Source: Brachyspira hampsonii (GTDB lineage: Bacteria > Spirochaetota > Brachyspiria > Brachyspirales > Brachyspiraceae). From it: a stretch of DNA of 64,000 bases. Position 1 is the first letter of the stretch; each line of letters starts with the position of its first letter. A program made the position numbers and the translations under genes. The stretch is from positions 496,001-560,000 of the forward strand of contig NZ_CP019914.1 of the NCBI RefSeq assembly GCF_002214805.1, written 5' to 3'. The notes under the pieces are model-generated. The model did no database searches and had not been told where the DNA came from. It was given only the letters and a program-made list of their open reading frames with translations. Positions 2,394 through 2,669 of the stretch are shown in pieces.

Positions 2394-2422
2394 TTGACAT
2401 ATAATGAAAGTTATTGTATTAT
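2394..2422 (+). promoter_or_regulatory. near-consensus promoter for the leader and cNMP-binding regulator genes
   Basis: TTGACA (2394-2399) and TATTAT (2417-2422) are separated by exactly 17 bp, predicting a start near 2429. The transcript would carry a leader ORF and two microsatellites before the regulator at 2666. Confidence 0.75.
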
Positions 2423-2459
2423 GCATCATGATTTTATAATATCAAATTTGGAGTTAAAG

Positions 2460-2669
2460 ATGTTATCCGTTATCCGTTATCCGTTATCCGTTATCCGTTA
2501 TCCGTTATCCGTTATCCGTTATCCGTTATCCGTTATCCGTTATCTATCTATCTATCTATCTATCTATCTATCTATCTATCTATCTATCTATAACTTAATT
2601 AATATTACACCTATATTAAAAAAAAAACAATATTATTTTCTTGAGGTATATAAGAGGTATACAAAATGA
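2460..2669 (+). CDS. microsatellite-encoded leader ORF coupled to downstream regulator
   Basis: An ATG at 2460 has a GGAG Shine-Dalgarno (2450-2453) 6 nt upstream and lies about 30 nt after the predicted transcription start. The 69-residue product is low-complexity: LSVIRYP repeats from the heptamer array, then SIYL repeats from the tetramer array, then about 26 ordinary codons. Its TGA stop (2667-2669) overlaps the ATG of the regulator at 2666 (ATGA), the classic layout for translational coupling. Both arrays are stop-free in all three frames. After them, the other two frames stop at once (TAA at 2591 and 2596), about 70 nt short of the regulator. The peptide itself probably has no function; its translation may act as a slippage-sensitive switch. 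Expression is inferred, not shown. Confidence 0.5.
   Translation: MLSVIRYPLSVIRYPLSVIRYPLSVIRYLSIYLSIYLSIYLSIYNLINITPILKKKQYYFLEVYKRYTK
2463..2539 (+). repeat. heptanucleotide microsatellite (TTATCCG) x 11
   Basis: Eleven perfect consecutive copies of the 7-bp unit occur here, followed directly by a TATC array. Seven is not a multiple of three, so gain or loss of one unit shifts the frame of the leader ORF. Perfect homogeneity suggests ongoing slippage. Confidence 0.97.
2541..2590 (+). repeat. tetranucleotide microsatellite (TATC) x 12
   Basis: Twelve perfect TATC units (2541-2588) plus a partial one follow the heptamer array without a gap. A four-base unit also shifts the frame when copy number changes. 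Two adjacent frameshifting arrays in one leader is unusual. Confidence 0.97.

Follow-up and report, generated by a model that had tools for sequence, protein, structure and literature searches.

The locus analyzed here raises the question of whether a short leader open reading frame (ORF), which carries two microsatellites and ends on the start codon of a cyclic-nucleotide-binding regulator, could act as a switch that sets how much of that regulator is made. Brachyspira are gut spirochaetes that include pig and human pathogens. In the literature we found no described phase-variation mechanism for this genus, and where a paper on Vsp proteins brings up phase variation, it does so solely by analogy with Mycoplasma (PMC5415613). 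We analyzed the window, meaning the whole 64,000-nt stretch of DNA, together with a comparison set of 26 Brachyspira genomes that includes the window's own (G000, a single contig of 3.19 Mb). The candidate phase switch put forward by the sequence-only reading gained support from the comparison of five orthologous loci, the recurrence of the same layout at other genes and a pair of paralogous leaders in genome G002. A switch at the focal locus is thus a supported prediction, as one member of a wider class.

All elements of the focal locus lie on the plus strand. A sigma-70-type promoter, TTGACA-17-TATTAT (2394..2422), matches at 11 of 12 positions, is the joint best sigma-70-like site in the scanned range 1700-5300, and sits 5' of both arrays, which are neither within nor upstream of it. 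The leader ORF (2460..2669) has its own Shine-Dalgarno sequence, GGAG (2450..2453), and reads from ATG 2460 through 69 codons to a TGA at 2667-2669. Its body contains a perfect heptanucleotide array, (TTATCCG)11 (2463..2539), followed by a 100% pure tetranucleotide array, (TATC)12.75 (2541..2591), so that units not divisible by 3 lie inside an upstream ORF with its own start, and both arrays are free of stops in all sense frames. In the tail that leads from the arrays to the regulator (2592..2665), which is without a terminator, one frame is open; the two closed exit frames stop at 2591-2593 and 2596-2598, 67-72 nt short of the regulator. The leader TGA overlaps the regulator ATG at 2666 in an ATGA, the arrangement of a translationally coupled pair. 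The sequence-only reading had named the promoter, GGAG and ATG 2460, the 11 heptamers followed by TATC repeats, the ATGA overlap, and the stop-free arrays with closing stops at 2591 and 2596, and each of these proved exact.

The unit sizes 7 and 4 both equal 1 modulo 3, so either array is able to open or close the frame. When changes of -2 to +2 units per array were simulated, one-third of the states were in frame, with the leader stop at +4 relative to the regulator, and the out-of-frame states placed it at -67 or -72; the heptamer and tetramer arrays were interchangeable, a change in one offsetting a change in the other. The earlier claim that a single-unit change would break coupling therefore holds for the frame logic, but translation of the regulator need not be lost, because a Shine-Dalgarno-like AGAGG (2653..2657) lies 8 nt 5' of its ATG. 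This site suggests that the off state would be low rather than zero and that the effect may be graded. Together with the local structure at the regulator start, which is only weak, it also means that uncoupled initiation may be substantial, which counts against a switch.

We consider it probable that a phase-variable leader ORF controls the regulator by frame-dependent coupling. Under this proposal, leader and regulator would be transcribed from the TTGACA-17-TATTAT promoter as one message, ribosomes would initiate at the leader ATG and translate through the repeats, and slipped-strand events that add or remove one 7- or 4-bp unit would alter the frame in which they leave the arrays. In one-third of the states, ribosomes would stop on the regulator start, and termination-reinitiation, suggested by the overlap of the leader stop with that start, would raise regulator synthesis. 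In the other two-thirds they would stop about 70 nt upstream, leaving the regulator to its own weak ribosome-binding site, with expression low or off. Slippage within strains, reinitiation and a change in regulator level are the steps that we infer. With a CRP-like cyclic-nucleotide-binding protein as the target, a single slippage event could affect a set of genes.

A close ortholog of the regulator is found in five of the 26 genomes, G000 itself, G018 and G005 (83% identity each), G015 (73%) and G009 (69%). The 17-nt-spaced promoter is kept in all five, with 30-37 nt between the end of its -10 element and the leader ATG, and the leader Shine-Dalgarno sequence is AGGAG or GGGAG in G018 and G005 and weaker in G015 and G009. 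Array copy numbers, which the sequence-only reading had proposed to compare among relatives, range from 1 to 13 heptamers and from 0 to 21 tetramers. The heptamer and TATC counts are 11 and 12 in G000, 1 and 0 in G018, 3 (imperfect) and 0 in G005, 13 and 3 in G015, and 11 and 21 in G009, and the distances from leader ATG to regulator are 206, 83, 97, 190 and 230 nt, respectively. Two leaders are in frame, that of G000, in which the TGA (+1..+3) overlaps the regulator ATG, and that of G018, with its stop at +4..+6; the other three (G005, G015 and G009) are out of frame and stop at about -62, -59 and -54, with another frame open to the regulator. An exit frame open to the regulator is thus present in all five, and in the relatives it ends at +4, +6, -5 and +23 relative to the regulator start. 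Repeat number and frame at this leader differ between species. Neither (TTATCCG)4 nor (TATC)6 occurs elsewhere in the 26 genomes beyond the same locus in relatives, and therefore the focal arrays are not a product of chance and the repeats are specific to the regulator gene.

Other explanations of the arrays were rejected. The repeats are not part of the regulator gene, as in an in-gene contingency locus, since several stops interrupt the regulator frame on the way from the arrays to the ATG. An attenuator or riboswitch was rejected on the lack of an Rfam match at the locus (the only match was a tRNA elsewhere), the lack of a terminator, and a leader RNA less structured than its shuffles. A dispersed repeat element was rejected since both arrays are locus-specific in the 26 genomes, and a promoter-spacing repeat since the promoter lies 5' of the arrays and is conserved in five genomes.

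The same layout was then sought as tandem units of 4-12 nt in 864 kb of G000 (~27%) and ~409 kb of G009 (~13%), and as CAACAGT arrays in the other genomes, so that the census is a sample. Arrays placed straight after the start codon of short ORFs that end near the next gene recur at several loci. The leader of an MFS transporter gene is in frame in G000 (18+9 units), G004 (14) and G005 (7) and out of frame in G021 (15). A leader before a YidC-like gene (60KD_IMP) is in frame with a 14-nt overlap in G006 (11 units) and G020 (15), and in G011 (13 units) it stops 33 nt short. In G002 this gene has two copies: copy a, with 10 units, is out of frame, and copy b, with 9, is in frame with its stop overlapping ATGATG. 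The tails of these paralogous leaders differ at 1 of 93 nt and the arrays by one unit, making this pair the plainest sign of slippage by a single unit that shifts the frame.

Further leaders of this kind precede genes of several functions. In G000, the 9-unit leader of a PF05540 (Serpulina_VSP) gene is out of frame, and another frame of its 72-codon tail is open up to an ATGA, an overlap that is found at YidC-like as well as Vsp genes. An MBOAT gene of the same genome has an out-of-frame leader in which (TCGCA)12 follows AGGAG-ATG. The layout is shared by glycosyltransferase family 8 genes in G009 and by a symporter-like gene in G003. At L147 (1775-2081), the (CAACAGT)9 leader of a PF05540 Vsp-family gene is out of frame, and the 5' end of the gene, near a short A tract, likewise does not share the frame of its ATG, which suggests that two switches are stacked. 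In G009 (L118), a 15-kb stretch has three different arrays (5085-5161, 11817-11861 and 19251-19314), each 5' of a glycosyltransferase-type gene, making this a candidate phase-variable glycan region. CAACAGT arrays also occur inside genes, near the 5' ends of what appear from their translations to be restriction-modification and glycosyltransferase genes in G014 (L141) and G019 (L143), and these look like ordinary contingency loci.

To what extent this layout exceeds chance was measured on 14 independent upstream arrays, the focal one and 13 others, with in-gene arrays (L141, L143 and others) set aside and with intergenic positions and dinucleotide shuffles as controls. An ATG directly before the array and open into it is present in 10 of the 14 (control 21.5%, P = 9e-5), in a class whose definition was set after the first examples had been seen and for which the orientation of L079 was chosen. 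A Shine-Dalgarno core accompanies the ATG in 6 of 14 (control 1.7%, P = 7e-8), and in 11 of 14 an exit frame stays open until 25 nt or less from the next gene, where dinucleotide shuffles predict 3.9 (P = 3e-7). When the discovery locus is dropped, P becomes 3e-4 for the ATG, 2e-6 for the ATG with Shine-Dalgarno and 7e-7 for the open tail. The open tail of the focal locus is unremarkable by itself, as 35% of shuffled tails are also open (P = 0.35), and it is the relatives and the other loci that give the case its strength.

The nearest precedent is the pil1 pilus locus of Streptococcus gallolyticus (pil1/pil3), in which GCAGA repeats in a leader peptide cause phase variation and place the downstream gene under stochastic control (PMC3894217). 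Leader-ORF slippage, which had been called unusual, is thus not unique. As at pil1, the focal locus has a repeat with a unit not a multiple of 3 in an upstream leader ORF, and the frame sets where leader translation ends. Unlike pil1, in which the ribosome disrupts an intrinsic terminator before the pilus operon, the focal locus is without a terminator, its leader ORF ends on the start codon of a CRP-like regulator, and it has two different arrays in series. The focal locus therefore would switch as pil1 does but is not filed under the attenuation type.

This precedent also favors an alternative in which the frame acts on transcription, with in-frame translation protecting the message or removing a terminator by attenuation or polarity, and no reinitiation taking place. 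Terminators of the pil1 kind are carried by two other Brachyspira leaders. At L093 in G000 (18143-18481), a leader ATG with (ACAAC)7 is followed by a strong intrinsic terminator and then a methyltransferase gene, and at L131 in G009 (5231-5403), a (CAAGA)10 leader is followed by an 18-bp terminator stem and then an FkbM methyltransferase gene. The L093 leader looks like pil1-type attenuation, and with clear intrinsic terminators at both loci the genus probably also uses a pil1-like readout. At the focal locus, however, no terminator-like hairpin was found between the arrays and the regulator, and the leader RNA folds worse than all 200 of 200 shuffles; pil1-like attenuation is thus unlikely there, and we regard transcription as an unlikely level for this switch. 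A further array, (CAGAC)10, lies near the 3' end of the same methyltransferase gene at L093 (19554-19603).

There is also a slim chance that the arrays tune expression through the length or composition of the 5' untranslated region, by spacing, message stability or protein binding, with leader translation incidental. Leader length does vary between species, from 83 to 230 nt, and the heptamer arrays of Haemophilus influenzae hmw1A/hmw2A act on expression from within the promoter region (PMC2651432). The latter locus resembles the focal one in having a heptamer array 5' of the gene; unlike it, the focal array lies 3' of the promoter, inside a predicted translated leader. Moreover, tuning by length would not call for the start codons and Shine-Dalgarno sequences that adjoin the arrays far above control, for arrays that are stop-free in the sense direction at the leader loci, or for an excess over expectation of tails that stay open as far as the next gene.

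That the microsatellites expanded neutrally in an intergenic leader, and that the ORF is a by-product, seems to us quite improbable. The non-significant focal tail would fit it, as would the single unit in G018 and the three imperfect units in G005, but the same layout is found at many unrelated genes with different units, including genes of typical phase-variable functions, and the promoter-to-leader geometry is conserved. That the leader peptide is itself the product, varied by the repeats in sequence or length, is very improbable: the leader is likely translated, given a good Shine-Dalgarno sequence and start in G000, G018 and G005, but G018 has hardly any of the repeat part, the MFS-locus tail remains open despite a frame-changing indel, and the focal tail differs between G018 and G005 at 9 of 75 positions without third-codon-position enrichment, a lack of amino-acid conservation that counts against the switch as well.

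The proposed leader-ORF switch may have a second precedent. In H. influenzae, lex2A is an upstream coupled ORF with tetranucleotide repeats before the glycosyltransferase gene lex2B. As at lex2A/lex2B, a repeat-bearing short upstream ORF would control the next gene; unlike the focal locus, that system has a single tetranucleotide array, a LOS glycosyltransferase as target and a host in an unrelated phylum. In-gene repeat contingency loci such as H. influenzae lic1A and modA (PMC2651432, PMC6479036) share slipped-strand frame switching, units not divisible by 3 and similar targets with the Brachyspira leaders, whereas the focal repeats lie in a separate ORF, cut off from the regulator by several stops in the regulator's frame.

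The regulator (2666..3820, plus strand, 384 aa) contains two PF00027 cyclic-nucleotide-binding (CNB) domains (1.9e-24, two copies) and a C-terminal CRP-like region. The AlphaFold model of the full-length protein (mean pLDDT 87) has a CNB domain, a helical linker, a second CNB domain, a long helix and a small alpha/beta domain, and Foldseek matched it to tandem-CNB proteins such as the regulatory parts of PKA and PKG. The C-half modeled alone matched CRP/FNR structures over ~200 aligned columns at low TM, and since this model is modest (pLDDT 70) and poorer than the full-length one (87), the alignment serves as fold-level support only. In profile comparison, the C-half matches CooA over nearly its full length. 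Both the fold match, from the modest-confidence C-half model, and the profile match extend across the CRP/CooA wHTH, and Pfam HTH models had no match in 22 family members. The C-half Foldseek match and the CooA profile match make it probable that the regulator is CRP-like and carries one additional CNB domain, and it is predicted to bind DNA. The family is expanded in Brachyspira, with about eight full-length or near-full-length copies in G000.

One such paralog starts 9 nt 3' of the regulator (3830..4888, plus strand), a second tandem-CNB gene in what is probably the same operon. Its C-terminus is truncated: within 3830-4998, an A tract near 4880 (A7) is one base short, which ends the gene at 4888, with the missing tail readable in another frame. 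The lost base may reflect a mononucleotide switch or an error in the sequence. That the paralog is frame-disrupted in every relative was rejected, as its orthologs in G018 and G005 are intact.

A switch in a leader ORF would leave the protein intact, and its output may be graded rather than all-or-none. Whether switchable leader ORFs, read by coupling or by a terminator, are a genus-wide feature of Brachyspira that acts on surface proteins (Vsp), transporters, glycan enzymes and a CRP-like regulator whose downstream regulon would be re-set, we judge to be evenly balanced. Acting on the CRP-like regulator, such a switch would make a gene set phase-variable at once, and Brachyspira may show the coupling and attenuation readouts of the same device side by side. 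Since leader repeats can be counted in any genome, the ON/OFF state of many genes would be predictable from sequence.

Other repeats in the window are of different kinds. A perfect (AGTTTAG)17.7 array (33812-33935) lies ~130 nt 5' of a 115-aa minus-strand ORF and has stops in every frame; it thus does not belong to the leader-ORF arrays and may work in another way. Repeats of 75 bp lie inside minus-strand ORFs at 1014-1494, 27672-29535 and 31636-31889, whose translations we read as repetitive surface proteins of the leucine-rich or BspA-like kind.
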